From positions 2,963,001 to 3,027,000 of the forward strand of contig NZ_CP159837.1 of NCBI RefSeq assembly GCF_040564635.1: DNA of 64,000 nucleotides. The letters run 5' to 3'. Below are positions 4,701 through 11,831 of the stretch, in pieces. Position 1 is the stretch's first letter, and each line of letters begins with the position of its first letter. The position numbers and the translations under genes are program-made. This DNA comes from Planktothricoides raciborskii GIHE-MW2 (GTDB lineage Bacteria > Cyanobacteriota > Cyanobacteriia > Cyanobacteriales > Laspinemataceae). The notes under the pieces were generated by a model, which ran no database searches, was not told where the DNA came from, and was given only the letters and a program-made list of their open reading frames with translations.

Positions 4701-5919
4701 GGTACAGCGGGGCGATAACCTGGTGTTGCTGGTGTTTGAACGGGGTAAGACCGGGGATATTATCCAGGGTTTGCCTCGGATTGAGGAATTGCTGGAAGCC
4801 CGCAAACCCAAAGAATCTTGCGTGTTGGCCAAGCGCCCCGGTACTACAGAGGTGGTCTATGACCAGGATGAAAATGTCGAGGTCAAAGTCATCGAAGATG
4901 ATGGCACGGTGACAGAGTATCCCATTAGCCCCGGGTTGAATGCGATCGTTTCAGACCATCAATTAGTTGCCGCTGGGGAAGCCCTGACTGATGGGCCAAT
5001 TAATCCCCATGAGTTGCTAGAAATTTTGTTTAACTGGCAGCGGGAACAAGTGGGGAATTTTGAAGCCGCGTTGAACAGCTTTGAACGAGTGCAGCACTTC
5101 TTGGTGAATGAGGTGCAGTCGGTGTATCAGTCTCAGGGGATTGATATTTCCGATAAGCATATTGAGGTGATTGTGCGCCAGATGACCAATAAGGTGCGGA
5201 TTGATGACGGCGGCGATACCACCATGTTGCCGGGAGAATTGATCGAACTACGTCAGGTGGAACAGGTGAATGAGGCAATGTCGATCACTGGCGGCGCCCC
5301 GGCAGAATATACGCCAATGCTGTTGGGGATTACTAAGGCTTCGTTGAATACCGATAGCTTTATTTCCGCAGCTTCTTTCCAAGAAACTACCCGCGTTCTG
5401 ACTGAGGCGGCGATCGAAGGTAAGTCCGACTGGCTGCGCGGTTTGAAAGAAAACGTGATTATCGGGCGGTTGATTCCCGCTGGTACGGGCTACAACGCTT
5501 ATGACCAACTTGCTGGTGCGATCGATGTGGAACCGGACGATGAGGATATTATCGAAGATTACTTTGATGACGACCAGACCGGCTTGCTAGACGACCAGAC
5601 AGCCCGCAATTATGGCGCTTGGGCGGAAGATGAGTCTGGGCTGACCTTGGTAGGCGAAGAACCCGGAAAAAATCGGTTTTCGACTTTGAGTTACGACGAA
5701 GAGTCAGAATTTGACTTGGGAAGTTCGGCGACGACTCGCAAGTCTAAGGGACGCGGGAAAACCAGCCAAAAAGGTCGGCGAGCAGGGCGATCGTCTCGGT
5801 TTGTATCGATTGTTGACAGCGATGAAGATTTGCTGCCACAAATCCTTGATGATGAGGATTTAGATGATAAGGATGACGATTTCTTTGATGATGATTTCGA
5901 TGAGGACGACGATATGTAA
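1750..5919 (+). CDS. rpoC2: RNA polymerase beta prime subunit RpoC2
   Basis: C-terminal half of beta prime, 1389 residues, within the usual cyanobacterial size range. Bridge-helix and trigger-loop signatures are visible: [20 protein letters not shown] at about residues 132-151 and [20 protein letters not shown] at about 320-339. A very large central insertion (about residues 350-980) of repeated beta-rich modules matches the cyanobacterial SI3 insertion. The end is conserved ([13 protein letters not shown] near residue 1238), followed by a lineage-specific tail rich in Arg/Lys and then a run of Asp/Glu. The start ATG follows an AG-rich stretch ending about 4 bp upstream. Part of the rpoB-rpoC1-rpoC2 operon. 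Confidence 0.98.
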
Positions 5920-5955
5920 TTCGTTGGGCAAATAGTGAAGAGTAAATAGACGTAG

Positions 5956-5980
5956 GTTGGGTTTCGTGCCTCAACCCAAC
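5956..5980. other. Hairpin after rpoC2
   Basis: An 8-bp inverted repeat, GTTGGGTT and AACCCAAC, with a 9-base loop lies 37 bp after the rpoC2 stop. It has no T-run, so it is not a textbook terminator. A related sequence occurs near 30965, so it may be a dispersed element. Confidence 0.4.
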
Positions 5981-5998
5981 TTGCAGAGAGTAAAGAGT

Positions 5999-6247
5999 GA
6001 ATAGTTAAGAGTGAAATGAAATATCACTATTCACTCTTCACTATTCACTCTTAACTTTTCACTATTCACTCTTAACTTTTCACTCTTAACTTTTCACTAT
6101 TCACTCTTTACTCTTAACTTTTCACTATTCACTCTTAAATTTTCACTTTTCACTCTTAAATTTTCACTTTTCACTCTTTAATCTTAACTTTTCCCTCTTA
6201 ACTTTTCCCTCTTAAATTTTCACTTTTCACTCTTAACTTTTCACTGT
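5999..6247 (+). repeat. Heptanucleotide-type tandem repeat array (STRR)
   Basis: About 250 bp of degenerate pyrimidine-rich heptamers, mainly TTCACTC, TTAACTT and TTCACTA, fill the spacer between rpoC2 and the metal-sensor gene. The + strand is almost free of G. Short tandemly repeated heptanucleotides are a known feature of filamentous cyanobacterial genomes. I see no gene in 5920-6257. Confidence 0.85.
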
Positions 6248-6922: not shown

Positions 6923-8269
6923 TTATTTGGCACAGCGAAATCCGACAAAGATTTGCCGAATCCAAGGCTGATACCAGTTGCGAAAACTGCCCCGAATAAC
7001 CCAAGGACGAGTGACACAACTACCGCCTCTAAGGACTTGGTGTTGATTGTCAAAATATGTCATGGAATATCCCGGATAGGGATAAGCTTCAAAACCTGGA
7101 TATCCGGCAAATTTGCTGGCTGTCCATTCCCAGGCGTTGCCCATCATGTCATAGCAGCCGTAGGGACTGATGCCCTGTGGGTAGGCATCGACTGGGGTGG
7201 TGGGGGGATTAAAGGGGGAGTTAAGAGAACGATTGTGGTTACAAAGGTGCGGTTGAGGGGGTTCTTTGCCCCAGGGATAGATTTGCTTTTGTTGGGTTTT
7301 TGGATTCCAACAGGCGGCTTTTTCCCATTCCGCTTCCGTGGGTAGTCGTTTGCCGACGAAGTTGCTGTAGGCTTCGGCTTCATACCAACTGACGCCACAG
7401 ACTGGGTGGAGATCGAGGGAGTCAGAAACCGGCTTTATTTCAGAGAAATCCGGTTTCGTCCAGTATAGGGGTTCGGTGATTTGTGCTGCTTGGCGCCATT
7501 GCCATCCTTCTTTTGACCAAAATTCAGGATTTTGGTAGCCTCCATCGCCGATAAATTGGCGATATTGACCTCGGCTTACTGGGTAGCGATCGATGTAGTA
7601 TGTGGGCAAATACTGAAGATGACGGGGGCGCTCGTTGTCGAGGGCGGCGATCGCATTTGACCCTTGGGCAAATTCACCCGCAGGAATTTCTATCATTTCG
7701 TCCAGGACGGGTTCAGAAACCGAGTCAGAAACCTGGTTTCTTGTCTGGTTCTTTTGGAGTTGTAGCAGAAACAAAATAGTTTCACAGTGTTGACTTTCAT
7801 GTTGGACGATGAAGTGCCAAAGCCTTTCTTGACTGTCTATAGGCGCAATTTCTAGGTACTGCAAGACTTTTTGCCGAATGAGTTCTAGGTTTTGGCAGGT
7901 TTCTGCTAAGGTGGGCAGGTTAATTCGTTGATTTTTCGGTAAGCCATCGGCAGCATAAAGTTGATGATATTGAGGAAACATCGGTGGCTGTTGAGCGCAA
8001 TGTTGGAGCAACCATAAGGCTTCGGTGTGGCCAATGTGACCTAGGTGCCAGCCTACGGGACTGAAGTCGGGGTGGATGTGCTGACAAAATATTTCATTAT
8101 TTAAGGAGGCAAAAATTTTTAGGGTGCTGGCGCGGCATTGCTGCATTGCTTCCCGGATTTGCGATCGCGATGACTGGGTAAGCGATGACTGGGTAAGCGA
8201 TGACTGGGTGGGCGATGACTGGGTGGGCGATGACTGGGTGGATAGGTTGGACTCAGATGGGTAGGACAT
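6923..8269 (-). CDS. egtB: EgtB-like non-heme iron sulfoxide synthase (DinB plus FGE domains)
   Basis: About 448 residues. EgtB oxidatively couples a thiol (gamma-glutamylcysteine or cysteine) to hercynine in ergothioneine synthesis. The N-terminal DinB-like helical bundle shows the iron ligands: a first His in WHLGHIGH (about 75-81) and the HESQH pair at 157-161. The C-terminal half is a formylglycine-generating-enzyme fold ending in GFRCAK. I chose the ATG at 8269 because GGAG lies 4 bases upstream and the longer frame would run 164 bp into egtC; the chosen start overlaps the egtC stop by 17 bp, as in a translationally coupled pair. Residues 11-37 are low-complexity Ser-Gln-Thr pentapeptides. 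The substrate could differ (SenA or OvoA-like enzymes share this fold). Confidence 0.8.
   Translation of the reverse strand: MSYPSESNLSTQSSPTQSSPTQSSLTQSSLTQSSRSQIREAMQQCRASTLKIFASLNNEIFCQHIHPDFSPVGWHLGHIGHTEALWLLQHCAQQPPMFPQYHQLYAADGLPKNQRINLPTLAETCQNLELIRQKVLQYLEIAPIDSQERLWHFIVQHESQHCETILFLLQLQKNQTRNQVSDSVSEPVLDEMIEIPAGEFAQGSNAIAALDNERPRHLQYLPTYYIDRYPVSRGQYRQFIGDGGYQNPEFWSKEGWQWRQAAQITEPLYWTKPDFSEIKPVSDSLDLHPVCGVSWYEAEAYSNFVGKRLPTEAEWEKAACWNPKTQQKQIYPWGKEPPQPHLCNHNRSLNSPFNPPTTPVDAYPQGISPYGCYDMMGNAWEWTASKFAGYPGFEAYPYPGYSMTYFDNQHQVLRGGSCVTRPWVIRGSFRNWYQPWIRQIFVGFRCAK
8164..8240. repeat. 15-bp in-frame tandem repeat in the egtB 5' end
   Basis: About five copies of GCGATGACTGGGTGG/AAG encode repeated Ser/Gln/Thr pentapeptides before the DinB domain. 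The unit is a multiple of three, so copy-number change would keep the frame. Confidence 0.8.
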
Positions 8270-9071
8270 GGGTCTCCATATTTTCTGTGATGGTGAGAAA
8301 ACTTTGTGGGGCACAGAGATGCCAATCCCCAATGAATAAGGGTTCTGAGGCAATGATGGCAGAGTGGGGAAAGGAGTTATGGTGAGATAACCAGTAAAGG
8401 GTTGGGGGTGTGGCACCTAGGGAGTAGCGAGTAGCAACAAGTTCCCGTCCGTTGCTGATGATTAGGTTGGCGGATATTTTGGTGGGGTTTGAGTTGGCTA
8501 GGTGGTTAAGGCTGTGTATGGTGTCTTTCAGGGCTGCGGTGATTTGAGCAATGTTGGCAGGTTGCTGGGGGCTATGGGCATTGCTGCGAGTTTGTAAGTG
8601 GTGGATGAATAGGGCAAAGATATGTTCTGAGTCGGTGCTGCCTTGTATGAGTTGGTAGGCGGTGTCGTTGAGGCGATCGCGAATTGGTCGGTAGAGAGTT
8701 TGGCGGAAGTTTTCAATAAATCCGTTGTGGGTGAAAAGAAGACGGCCATGCTTGAAGGGCTGGCAGTTACTCAGGTCTACGGGTTGTCCGGCGGTGGCGC
8801 TGCGAATATTAGCAAGTATGCAGCCTGACTGGATGTAGCCGCTGAGTTCTGGGAGGTTGATGTCACTCCAGATGGGTAGGATGTTTTTGTATATAAAGGG
8901 GTCGGTTTCTGCGGTTGAGTGATACCAGCCAATGCCAAAGCCATCAGCATTGACGACTCCAGAAGTCATTTCTCGCGGCTGATAGCTTTGAACAATTAGA
9001 GAGTGTTCTGGTTGGTTTAGTAGGCGATCGAGGGAAATTGGTTGCCCTAAGTAGCCGAGTAAGCGACACAT
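8253..9071 (-). CDS. egtC: Class II glutamine amidotransferase, EgtC-like
   Basis: 272 residues starting MCRLLGY, so Cys2 becomes the N-terminal nucleophile of an Ntn-hydrolase after Met removal. The NADGFGIGWY and RSATAGQPV segments and FTHNGFIENF match the EgtC/GAT II family. EgtC removes the glutamyl group from gamma-glutamyl-hercynylcysteine sulfoxide. It is the first gene of a two-gene operon with egtB, whose start lies inside its last codons. Having egtC next to an EgtB suggests the gamma-glutamylcysteine route, but egtD is not in this window. The alternative is an uncharacterised GAT II amidase. Confidence 0.82.
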   Translation of the reverse strand: MCRLLGYLGQPISLDRLLNQPEHSLIVQSYQPREMTSGVVNADGFGIGWYHSTAETDPFIYKNILPIWSDINLPELSGYIQSGCILANIRSATAGQPVDLSNCQPFKHGRLLFTHNGFIENFRQTLYRPIRDRLNDTAYQLIQGSTDSEHIFALFIHHLQTRSNAHSPQQPANIAQITAALKDTIHSLNHLANSNPTKISANLIISNGRELVATRYSLGATPPTLYWLSHHNSFPHSAIIASEPLFIGDWHLCAPQSFLTITENMETHVLPI

Positions 9072-9497: not shown

Positions 9498-10267
9498 ATG
9501 AATCATAAAAATCAGGATTTATTAAAAGTGCTTAATCGTCAGCCCTATCCTTTGCTATTTATAACCATTAGTGGCTCACATTTATATGGATTTTCATCGG
9601 CGGATTCGGATTATGATTTACGGGGGGTGCATATTTTACCCATCCGGGAAATTATTGGATTAAATCCCCCAAAAGAAACCATAGAAATCTGTGAAGTTCA
9701 AGAACATGGATTACCAGTTGATTTAGTCACTCACGAAATCAAAAAAATTTTTGGACTTTTTCTGAAAAAAAATGGCTATGTTTTAGAACATTTGTATTCA
9801 CCTCTGGGGGTGATCCACACTCCGGCATCCGAAGAAATCAAAGAACTAGCCAAAAGTTTTATAACTCGTCACCACGCCCATCATTATCTGGGATTTGCTC
9901 GGAACCAATGGAAATTGTTTGCACAAGACAATCCACCCAAAATCAAGCCACTACTCTATGTATTCCGAGTTTTACTTACCGGGATTTATTTAATGCAAAC
10001 TGGTAAAATAGAAGCAAATATTATCGAATTAAATCAAGAGTTTAATCTCAGTTATATTGCTGATTTAATTGCGAGAAAAACCGAGTCATTGGAAAAATCT
10101 GTCCTTGCCTTGACCTAGGCTTCTACGAATCAGAATTTCAGCGACTTTCCTGGGAATTAGAAAAAGCTTATGATAAAAGTCACTTACCGAATGAACGAAG
10201 TTCTAAAATTTTACTCAATGATTGGTTGATTAGAGTGAGATTAGAAAATTTTTCTGGTTTTAATTAA
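9498..10267 (+). pseudogene. COG3541-type nucleotidyltransferase, broken by a frameshift near the C-terminus
   Basis: The first 206 codons (9498-10118) encode a nucleotidyltransferase: the GSHLYGF helix-turn, the SADSDYDLRGV metal-binding Asp pair and a conserved EHGLPVDLVTHEIKKI strand. The frame then stops at TAG 10116-10118. Another frame (codon starts shifted by -1) continues without a break as LDLGFYESEFQRLSWELEKA to ...SKILLNDWLIRVRLENF and stops at 10265-10267; this is the expected C-terminal end of the family. A single-base loss near 10098-10106, or a sequencing error, explains the split. Members of this family occur in phages and next to RNA ligase or RNA repair genes (from memory). 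A truncated product with the intact catalytic part could still be made. Confidence 0.75.
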
Positions 10268-10458: not shown

Positions 10459-11190
10459 ATGGCAAAATTAAATCAGATTATTGCGATAGAAAAAGGAATT
10501 AAAAGCCAGTCGGTTCAGCAAGTAGCCGAAACTCAACGGACACTGCAAAAGTATTCGTTATTTTCTGGGATTAGTCGCACCTATCGACCAAAAGATGAAG
10601 AAGGTGAACAACTTCCCCCAGAGTCAAATAAAGTTCAGGTGACGGCAGATGAGATTATTCACGAAACCCGAGAATTTTTGACGAAACTTTTTGATATTAC
10701 TGCAACTAAAGACTGGACTAATTGCCATGCACGGGCTGATGTGGTGGTGAATGGTCAAACGTTGTTAACCCAAGTGCCGGTGAGTTATTTACTGTTTCTA
10801 GAAAAGCAGTTATCAGATTTACACGCTTTTATTAAAAAGTTACCAATTCTTGATGCTTCCGAGCGTTGGACGTTCGATCCAAATTCTGATTGTTGGGCTA
10901 CCGAACCTGTGCAAACTTTGAAGACTTTTAAGATGCCGCGTAACCACGTTAAAGCGGAGGCGACGGAACATCACCCAGCCCAAGTTGAGGTTTATTATGA
11001 GGATGTGACGATTGGCTATTGGCGGACGGTAAAATTTTCTGGGGCTTTACCAGCCCAACGGATTCACGAGTTGTTGAATCGCTTAGAAAAGTTACAACAA
11101 GCGGTTAAGTTTGCCCGGGAAGAAGCAAATAATGCTGAAGCGGAAGAACAGAGAGTTGGAGACAGAATTTTTAATTATCTGTTTTCCTGA
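10459..11190 (+). CDS. Conserved protein of unknown function (probable DUF7873 family)
   Basis: 243 residues, cytosolic, with AGGAG 7 bp before the ATG. Conserved-looking blocks: MAKLNQIIAIEKGIKS at the start, SGISRTYRPKDEEGEQLPPE (about 36-55), TKDWTNCHARADVVV, VPVSYLLFLEKQLSDLH, CWATEPVQTLKTFKMPRNHVKAE and YYEDVTIGYWRTVKFSGALP, then a coiled C-terminus. I recall this family from actinobacteria, myxobacteria and cyanobacteria near RtcB ligase or tRNA genes and think it is DUF7873, but could not check. No nucleotide-binding motif is evident; no function is assigned. It is followed by its own terminator and then by the permuted tRNA-like array, and preceded by a nucleotidyltransferase relic. 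Confidence 0.8.
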   Translation: MAKLNQIIAIEKGIKSQSVQQVAETQRTLQKYSLFSGISRTYRPKDEEGEQLPPESNKVQVTADEIIHETREFLTKLFDITATKDWTNCHARADVVVNGQTLLTQVPVSYLLFLEKQLSDLHAFIKKLPILDASERWTFDPNSDCWATEPVQTLKTFKMPRNHVKAEATEHHPAQVEVYYEDVTIGYWRTVKFSGALPAQRIHELLNRLEKLQQAVKFAREEANNAEAEEQRVGDRIFNYLFS

Positions 11191-11330: not shown

Positions 11331-11372
11331 ATTTTTGTCAAATTTGACAAAAATATCTAGATTTTCTTGTAT
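11331..11372 (+). promoter_or_regulatory. Palindromic operator overlapping the promoter of the tRNA-like array
   Basis: A perfect 24-bp palindrome (11331-11354) with core TTGTCAAATTTGACAA. Its right arm contains TTGACA (11344-11349), which with a 17-bp spacer faces TTGTAT (11367-11372); a better -10-like TATGAT lies at 11390-11395. A repressor sitting on the palindrome would cover the -35. It lies 82-105 bp before the first tRNA-like half. Confidence 0.5.
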
Positions 11373-11435
11373 TTTTTGATAATTTAAGCTATGATGATAT
11401 GAGAGTACAAGCTAAAGCTAAACCTTTAACTTAAA

Positions 11436-11586
11436 CCGTACTGACGTTACAGTGTAGGTTCGACTCCTACCCCTGCACAAGAAACCGGGTTTCTGCTTTA
11501 ATTTATGCCGAAAATCAGAGTTTAAATTAAGAAACCCGGTTTCTGGACTCCGGGGTAGCCCAATTGGTAGAGGCGGCGTCCCGTAC
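11436..11586 (+). tRNA. Circularly permuted tRNA-like gene 1 (anticodon GTA by position)
   Basis: The 3' half comes first: anticodon-stem strand GACGT (11443-11447), variable loop of 6, T-arm GTAGG-TTCGACT-CCTAC (11454-11470), acceptor strand CCCTGCA (11471-11477). The 5' half follows at 11549: acceptor TCCGGGG, TA, D-arm with AATTGGTAGA loop and GCC/GGC stem, anticodon-stem strand GCGTC (11576-11580). Rejoined, the acceptor pairs 6 of 7 (one C-C mismatch, one G-T), the anticodon stem 5 of 5. Both halves carry the same CCGTAC at the cut (11436-11441 and 11581-11586), giving a 7-base loop CCGTACT. Leader TTTAACTTA (11425-11433) is fully complementary to trailer TAAGTTAAA (11611-11619). Odd points: C instead of U at position 33, no CCA, and a short variable loop for tRNA-Tyr. 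Decayed tRNA pieces are the alternative. Confidence 0.6.
11480..11544. repeat. Dispersed GAAACCCGGTTTC palindrome as a long hairpin inside tRNA-like gene 1
   Basis: 15-bp perfect inverted arms AGAAACCGGGTTTCT (11480-11494) and AGAAACCCGGTTTCT (11530-11544), with a further TTTAATTTA/TAAATTAA inner pairing. It occupies the intervening sequence between the 3' half and 5' half, and folding would bring the two acceptor strands together. Confidence 0.8.
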
Positions 11587-11661
11587 AAATTCAAAATCAG
11601 CTTATTACTCTAAGTTAAATATTCATCGCCGATCGCCTAAACAATCGTTGGGTTATTCCAG

Positions 11662-11733
11662 TGTCGAGATGCTGGCTCATCTCCAGCCTGGGGCTCCAAC
11701 TTGCCCCGGTAGTTTAATTGGTAAAATACGACT
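11662..11733 (+). tRNA. Circularly permuted tRNA-like gene 2, CCA encoded
   Basis: 3' half first: anticodon-stem GTCG (11663-11666), 4-base variable loop, T-arm GCTGG-CTCATCT-CCAGC (11671-11687), acceptor CTGGGGC (11688-11694), discriminator T and CCA (11696-11698). After only four bases the 5' half begins: acceptor GCCCCGG (11703-11709), TA, D-arm GTTT-AATTGGTA-AAAT (11712-11727), then CGACT (11729-11733). The acceptor halves pair 7 of 7 with one G-T wobble, the D-stem 4 of 4, and CGAC pairs with GTCG. The anticodon cannot be placed because the loop is split and the cut point is uncertain. Leader GTTGGGTT (11647-11654) pairs with trailer AACCC-T-GAC (11748-11756) with one bulge. The T-loop CTCATCT departs from TTCRANY, so it may not be a working tRNA. 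Confidence 0.55.
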
Positions 11734-11796
11734 TTAATTTTAAGCTAAACCCTGACTTAAATGTGAGGGCGTGTGCAAATGGGCGATATTTTAAGA

Positions 11797-11831
11797 CCCG
11801 TAGCAGGACAGCGCTACGGGCCTTTGTTTTT
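11797..11831 (+). terminator. Terminator of the permuted tRNA-like array
   Basis: 8-bp stem CCCGTAGC (11797-11804) and GCTACGGG (11813-11820), 8-base loop, then CCTTTGTTTTT. It closes the transcription unit begun near 11344. Between 11757 and 11796 I see no further tRNA half. Confidence 0.75.

Follow-up and report, generated by a model that had tools for sequence, protein, structure and literature searches.

The window, a stretch of 64,000 nucleotides from the cyanobacterium Planktothricoides raciborskii GIHE-MW2 (contig NZ_CP159837.1), contains a gene of the DUF7873 family and, downstream of it on the plus strand at approximately 11403–11822, what sequence comparison indicates is a conserved, structured noncoding RNA that contains two tRNA-like modules, denoted X and Y, each circularly permuted. 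A previous sequence-only reading had described a single scrambled tRNA gene at this site; by the same comparison, that gene is one part of the larger, two-module RNA. The features are listed below by their positions in the window.

9498–10118, plus strand: RlaP gene (RNA repair pathway DNA polymerase beta family, PF10127; Pfam E 1.7e-46)
10459–11190, plus strand: DUF7873 gene (PF25283; Pfam E 2.3e-117), the conserved partner; AlphaFold model with pLDDT 93.0 and pTM 0.67
11367–11395, plus strand: promoter-like TTGTAT-17-TATGAT, putative, read by eye directly 5' of the RNA
11403–11822, plus strand: whole noncoding RNA, conserved in relatives, running from GAGTA through the terminal hairpin (both ends predicted)
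11403–11407, plus strand: leader motif GAGTA, complementary to 11606–11610
11443–11580, plus strand: module X, both halves and linker (sequence, pattern detector, covariation)
11443–11477, plus strand: first-encoded (tRNA 3') half of X, with anticodon-like strand 11443–11447 and variable region 11448–11453
11454–11470, plus strand: T-arm of X, GTAGG-TTCGACT-CCTAC, followed by the acceptor 3' strand 11471–11477
11478–11548, no strand assigned: interspersed repeat, a AGAAACCGGGTTTCT-type inverted repeat, in the X linker (genome-wide matches)
11549–11580, plus strand: second-encoded (tRNA 5') half of X, with acceptor 11549–11555, D-arm 11558–11574 and anticodon-like strand 11576–11580
11606–11610, plus strand: mid motif TACTC, pairing with the leader motif
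11631–11774, plus strand: Y domain with a two-part basal stem (covariance model R1, 98.9 bits; the sequence, L001, is itself one of the 45 training sequences)
11663–11732, plus strand: module Y (pattern detector, covariation), absent from the sequence-only reading
11663–11694, plus strand: first-encoded half of Y, with anticodon-like strand 11663–11666, T-arm 11671–11687 and acceptor 3' strand 11688–11694
11695–11702, plus strand: Y linker TCCAACTT, 8 nt, joining the two acceptor strands (pattern detector)
11703–11732, plus strand: second-encoded half of Y, with acceptor 11703–11709, D-arm 11712–11727 and anticodon-like strand 11729–11732
11797–11820, plus strand: terminal hairpin with loop AGGACAGC, followed by a T-rich tract (hairpin scan)

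The EgtC gene for ergothioneine biosynthesis (TIGR03442, E 1.6e-93) lies at 8253–9071, upstream of RlaP and on the opposite strand.

Architecture of the RNA

Promoter-like hexamers were seen by eye at a similar position in the other cyanobacterial loci examined; a strict promoter scan did not report the element at 11367–11395. In 73 of 86 distinct RNAs the mid motif was present, and in 48 of these 73 loci the leader contained the exact complement of the mid 5-mer, compared to 370 of 1460 leaders taken from loci with another motif. The hairpin at the tail was found in 85 of the 86 RNAs, with a GGNYA-type loop in 73, against 5 of 86 after shuffling. The median distance between the X stem and the terminal hairpin was 338 nt (43 viral and 43 cellular RNAs).

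What had been described for module X was confirmed in the sequence. The T-arm with its TTCGACT loop and the acceptor 3' strand are present and lie 71 nt (11478–11548) before the acceptor 5' strand and D-arm; the anticodon-type stem forms five of five pairs between 11576–11580 and 11443–11447, one of them G-U; and CCGTAC occurs at both cut ends (11436–11441 and 11581–11586). A 9-base complementarity between leader and trailer, proposed to hold the ends of a precursor together, does exist (11425–11433 with 11611–11619), but it is not conserved: runs of at least seven leader–trailer pairs were found in 3 of 73 loci, compared to 84 of 1460 combinations between different loci, which is no enrichment. 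Module Y has an acceptor stem of seven pairs (GCCCCGG/CTGGGGC) that includes one G-U.

The 71-nt gap inside X is an interspersed repeat that landed in the linker of the RNA. The repeat matched 49 further places in the P. raciborskii genome at E ≤ 5.2e-6, with 192 matches in total at E ≤ 10. It was missing from the X linker, with the flanks conserved, in five genomes (G001, G002, G004, G013 and G044), where the linkers that were measured came to 8 (G001), 5 (G002), 9 (G013) and 9 nt (G044). A further genome, G053, had kept the RNA, but the T-arm of its X was no longer recognizable.

Distribution in phages and bacteria

DUF7873 was matched in 73 phage records (Vibrio 29, Gordonia 12, Rhizobium 12, Klebsiella 7, Serratia 6, Arthrobacter 3, Pseudanabaena 2, Rhodococcus 1 and Microcoleus 1) and confirmed in 286 IMG/VR stretches and at least 522 bacterial stretches. 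For the survey, 189 DUF7873 loci were assembled from phages, metaviruses and bacteria, the IMG/VR and bacterial sets being the best 80 by similarity each (of 286 and of at least 522). The titles of these best 80 bacterial records included cyanobacteria, Chloroflexi or Ktedonobacterales, Actinomycetota, Acidobacteria, Deinococcales and Armatimonadetes. Three loci were short of downstream sequence and others were identical copies, leaving 168 for analysis.

The 1000 nt downstream of DUF7873 were searched with a pattern detector for a T-arm, an acceptor strand, a linker, a pairing acceptor strand and a D-arm, in that order. One or more modules were found in 158 of the 168 loci, 97 of which had two or more. 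The same pattern was found at a rate of 14–16% in all controls: the reverse complement (26/168), the upstream sequence (26/164) and its reverse complement (26/164), sequence further downstream (22/153) and shuffled sequence (24/168). In six phage loci (L047–L051 and L054) two permuted modules could be seen by eye 3' of DUF7873; by the same inspection, L052 and L053 did not show both modules after the gene.

For the Y domain a covariance model, R1, was built from 45 sequences over 143 positions. Of 160 loci, 145 scored at least 55 bits with it, comprising 71 of the 80 viral loci and 74 of the 80 from genomes. Since 41 of the 160 belonged to the training set, the loci outside it were also counted separately, and 104 of these 119 passed, near-identical copies included. 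Matches outside training included an Acidobacteria MAG (L147, 102.0 bits) and a Deinococcales MAG (L159, 110.9 bits); within it, the window scored 98.9 bits and an Armatimonadetes contig 124.6 bits. Only matches of at least 55 bits were counted, because those of approximately 30–44 bits look like neighboring tRNA genes. By these sequence matches, the RNA recurs in many phages and several bacterial phyla, usually adjoining the DUF7873 gene.

The exceptions were of several kinds. The detector found no module in L070, L085, L103, L111, L115, L148, L149, L152, L157 and L159, of which L103, L111 and L159 were nevertheless recognized by R1 (83.3, 79.7 and 110.9 bits). Scores below 55 bits were obtained for L070, L071, L085, L115 and L148, for L092 and L124, which have 326 and 9 nt of downstream sequence, for L104 (two modules by detector), L121 (48.4 bits), L122 (one module) and L156 (30.2 bits), and, near DUF7873, for L149, L152, L153 and L157. 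In L157 (28.8 bits) X and a Y with a long linker were seen by eye. Four loci, L070, L085, L115 and L148, had neither a module by detector nor an R1 match at E ≤ 1e-7 near DUF7873. Four genomes without the RNA beside DUF7873 carried it elsewhere: L149 (95.7 bits), L152 (105.4 bits), L153 (105.0 bits) and G053, in which the gene and the RNA (76.6 bits) are on separate contigs. The RNA lies upstream of the gene in L103 and on the strand opposite the gene in L118, where three consecutive R1 matches (112.3, 20.4 and 13.5 bits) occupy 5719–6207 of the minus strand.

Among 292 cyanobacterial genomes, R1 gave at least 55 bits in nine and DUF7873 was present in ten, with both in eight; at E ≤ 0.01, R1 had matches in 121 of the 292. 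The two genomes with DUF7873 and no match of 55 bits, G123 and G196, had weaker matches (38.7 and 44.1 bits) beside the gene. In G167 the RNA was present and no DUF7873 was found; here, an RNA with both modules lies on the minus strand at approximately 1440–1780 of locus L224.

The neighboring ORFs of the loci were clustered and Pfam was run on the ORFs of the window. The largest cluster comprised one ORF in 58 loci, which we took for the antisense of DUF7873; every other cluster was limited to ten loci or fewer, and the clusters included no conserved gene downstream of the RNA. The RlaP cluster contained the window's own locus (twice) and L135 only, and an RNA repair operon was therefore rejected as the general setting. 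In G002 (L011), which was outside the neighbor survey, an RlaP-like ORF was seen by eye to precede DUF7873. The density of tRNA genes called by ARAGORN was 7.78 per 10 kb in eight phage loci, 4.47 in the 80 IMG/VR loci and 0.24 in the 80 bacterial genome loci, this last value being inflated in part because the RNA itself was falsely called as tRNA. Inside the tRNA array of Gordonia phage Phendrix (L048, 3072–3600) a match to tmRNA (89 bits) was found, where the record has no tmRNA among the features listed. In the Microcoleus phage locus L052, which has no clear copy of the RNA, a HEARO RNA (129.1 bits) lies downstream of DUF7873 at 4950–5159; R1 gave only 32.3 bits, elsewhere in the locus.

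Conservation of the fold

Both modules were found in register in 93 of the 168 loci, from which the 86 distinct RNAs were aligned. In this alignment, the 30 top-ranked covarying column pairs (z ≥ 8.5, by a statistic that ignores phylogeny) were all helix pairs: they fell in the T, acceptor and D stems of the two modules or in two helices that join the middle of the RNA to its tail; non-helix pairs appeared further down the ranking. X and Y were also aligned separately by a tool (A6 and A7), leaving out linkers longer than 12 nt and near-identical rows. Paired cells amounted to 91.7% for X (56 sequences), compared to 67.7% in shuffled and at most 51.1% in slid controls, and to 88.9% for Y (46 sequences), compared to 64.1% and at most 46.7%, respectively; the slid controls preserve the relatedness of the sequences, whereas the shuffles do not. 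Cells changed on both sides of a pair numbered 248 in X and 228 in Y, against 77 and 71 after shuffling, and no shuffle reached either value. In the acceptor stems, 99.0% of cells were paired in X and 99.1% in Y, with both-sided, compensatory changes at all seven pairs of each. The circularly permuted tRNA-like fold in a bacterium that the sequence-only reading had described is thereby borne out, and the covariation of the acceptor strands indicates that the fold is under selection.

The acceptor, D, anticodon-type and T stems of the modules have the proportions of a tRNA. The D-stem usually has three pairs in X and four in Y; with a three-pair D-stem, X resembles leucine-type tRNAs. In the anticodon-like stems, 69.6% (X) and 57.8% (Y) of cells were paired at one fixed register; when the register was allowed to vary, all five pairs formed in 64 of 93 X and 63 of 93 Y modules, compared to 867 and 928 of 5000 swapped controls. 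For the Y domain as a whole (alignment A8, into which 45 of 47 Y domains were entered), 30 of the 31 pairs predicted by RNAalifold had compensatory changes. At the level of sequence, comparison across loci has shown the fold and both of its modules, as well as the stem at the base of Y, the hairpin at the tail and the linkage to DUF7873.

Relation to known RNAs and possible role

The RNA of the window and of 14 other loci was scanned against Rfam 15, and no family scored at or above its cut-off; five weak matches on the window RNA at E ≤ 5 were taken for chance. The closest known layout is that of the bacterial Y RNA. Its tRNA-like domain is described as having D, T and acceptor arms and sitting on a basal stem, the domain binding PNPase and the stem binding Rsr, and Y RNA and tmRNA are named as the best cases of bacterial regulatory RNAs that mimic tRNA (PMC8394870). 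The Rfam model of YrlA (RF02553) has the order T-arm, capped acceptor, D-arm, which is the order in X and Y. YrlA likewise carries a tRNA-like module on a basal stem, as Y does on its two-part stem, assuming that the acceptor is closed in the mature RNA. The RNA described here differs from YrlA in having two modules, a length of approximately 340 nt rather than 90–150 nt, and DUF7873 as a neighbor. With the YrlA model, both Phendrix modules were matched in the same layout (37.1 and 21.0 bits; gathering cut-off 69). However, none of 15 genomes or records passed the cut-off (best 44.7 bits), the window RNA was unmatched at E ≤ 5 and the window's genome at E ≤ 0.01, and 9 of 14 control genomes also had matches below threshold; for these reasons, the RNA was not filed as YrlA. 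The likeness is one of layout, not proof of descent. Chen reportedly described YrlA-type RNAs in phages in 2014, and part of the present family may therefore already be counted there. In the open-licence literature searched, no title or abstract opening among the papers listed described the RNA, and DUF7873 appeared in no paper.

In permuted tmRNA (RF04321) the tRNA 3' half is encoded first. The permuted gene order (PMC10085705) is shared with X and Y, while the RNA described here has real D-stems, two modules and no supported tag frame; the RF04321 model gave 19.3 bits in L048, against a cut-off of 47, and left the window region unmatched at E ≤ 5. GOLLD is likewise a large RNA tied to phage-type tRNA clusters (PMC9569102), and its model had no match at cut-off in the window and 14 loci.

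Circularly permuted tRNA genes, which the sequence-only reading had cited from algae and an archaeon, also place the 3' half before the 5' half, and their transcripts are described as being circularized and cut back to standard tRNAs (PMC10085705). The proposal that the RNA would be excised and circularized into a functional tRNA in this way agrees with several of the ARAGORN results: the two halves as joined in that reading were called a tRNA, while none of 1000 shuffled versions were, and when modules were rejoined with a typed, neutral 7-nt loop, 175 of 186 were called (180 of 186 with slightly different cuts), compared to 298 of 1000 joins between halves from different loci. The halves of the window's own X and Y were not called when joined without the typed loop. 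Yet U33 is not conserved, the position after rejoining being T in 18 of 64 X and 22 of 63 Y modules, and because, in addition, the leader–trailer helix is unconserved, the would-be anticodon-loop strands continue into conserved helices and one RNA contains two modules, we found the proposal unsupported and consider it very improbable. Still less credence can be given to a decayed array in which adjacent tRNA gene halves look paired by accident. Many phage loci are rich in tRNA genes, and the YrlA and R1 models gave many matches of approximately 30–44 bits elsewhere that we took for neighboring tRNA genes; but chance adjacency is at odds with acceptor strands that covary across loci, with same-locus controls that remain at 14–16% and with the presence of the RNA in bacterial loci with few tRNA genes.

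Two other readings deserve more weight. Each linker may be cut by RNase P and 3'-end enzymes, leaving pieces that are kept together through their acceptor, T and D contacts; the free CCA ends might then be aminoacylated, as happens in split tmRNA. Of the 93 X and 93 Y modules, 36 and 32, respectively, have NCCA after the acceptor 3' strand, which would suit tRNA 3'-end processing, long linker inserts are tolerated (71 and 76 nt in the counted set, and longer still in the Y linker of L157), and permuted tmRNA genes are described as being processed into two RNAs (PMC10085705). On the other hand, NCCA is missing from more than half of the modules, some linkers are just 4 nt long, which suits a capped acceptor stem, and the permuted tmRNA model fell far below its gathering score. 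A tag peptide was considered at the mid motif, where a leucine-rich frame was seen by eye in several sequences, and was set aside as unsupported: the frame has no stop in Pam2, Ziko and G053, and the pairing with the leader accounts for the motif. Altogether, we regard such two-piece processing as rather unlikely. The RNA might instead act in cis, regulating DUF7873 or a gene downstream through modules that sense tRNA-binding proteins, which would explain the proximity to DUF7873 and the terminator-like hairpin at the end of the RNA. This reading fits poorly with an RNA that as a rule lies downstream of DUF7873, is followed by no conserved gene in the neighbor clusters and is not beside DUF7873 in four genomes, and is improbable.

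We consider it reasonably probable that the locus encodes a stable, two-module tRNA-mimic RNA, laid out like bacterial Y RNA and working with DUF7873 as a tether or decoy. The RNA would be made, and be stable, in the permuted form: in each module the T-arm, acceptor stem and D-arm would be made in permuted order, the linker would close the acceptor stem, and the anticodon arm would be opened and replaced by helices leading into the core of the RNA. DUF7873 would then bind the RNA, and the modules might serve as tRNA bodies for proteins that recognize the elbow and acceptor of a tRNA, by analogy with the tRNA-like domain of Y RNA. (Hughes et al. suggested that the YrlA tRNA-like domain might competitively inhibit anticodon nuclease; PMC7790460.) Binding by DUF7873 is a guess, since Foldseek gave no PDB or BFVD match to the DUF7873 model at E ≤ 0.001 (best 0.04 and 1.7e-3, respectively). 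PHROGs, NCBIfam and PADLOC gave no match either; the best match among PDB sequences (E 0.036) and the best VIA-align hit, 3kdq, a protein of unknown function (Z 8.0, rmsd 7.7, 147 aligned), were set aside.

Since tRNA genes are numerous around the phage loci, the RNA may have a role in tRNA supply or protection during infection; the bacterial loci are mostly without tRNA arrays, so that the phage setting does not account for them. A more specific version, which we put forward tentatively and hold to be possible but on balance doubtful, is a phage-spread, DUF7873-bound ribonucleoprotein in which X and Y are attached to a single core through their anticodon ends and, during infection or stress, simultaneously occupy or displace two tRNA-binding proteins or sites.

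If the preferred, Y RNA-like reading is correct, the RNA would be a further, widespread bacterial tRNA mimic, with two modules per RNA and a conserved protein without a recognized fold, and would provide the first context for DUF7873. It would also be a caution that permuted tRNA-like matches in bacteria need not be tRNA genes. A related observation concerns ten Streptomyces loci (L168, L185, L187, L188, L189, L191, L199, L201, L210 and L213), in which ARAGORN called a collinear tRNA across the leader and X, assigned as tRNA-Leu, tRNA-Phe or left unassigned; annotation may thus carry false tRNAs at these sites.
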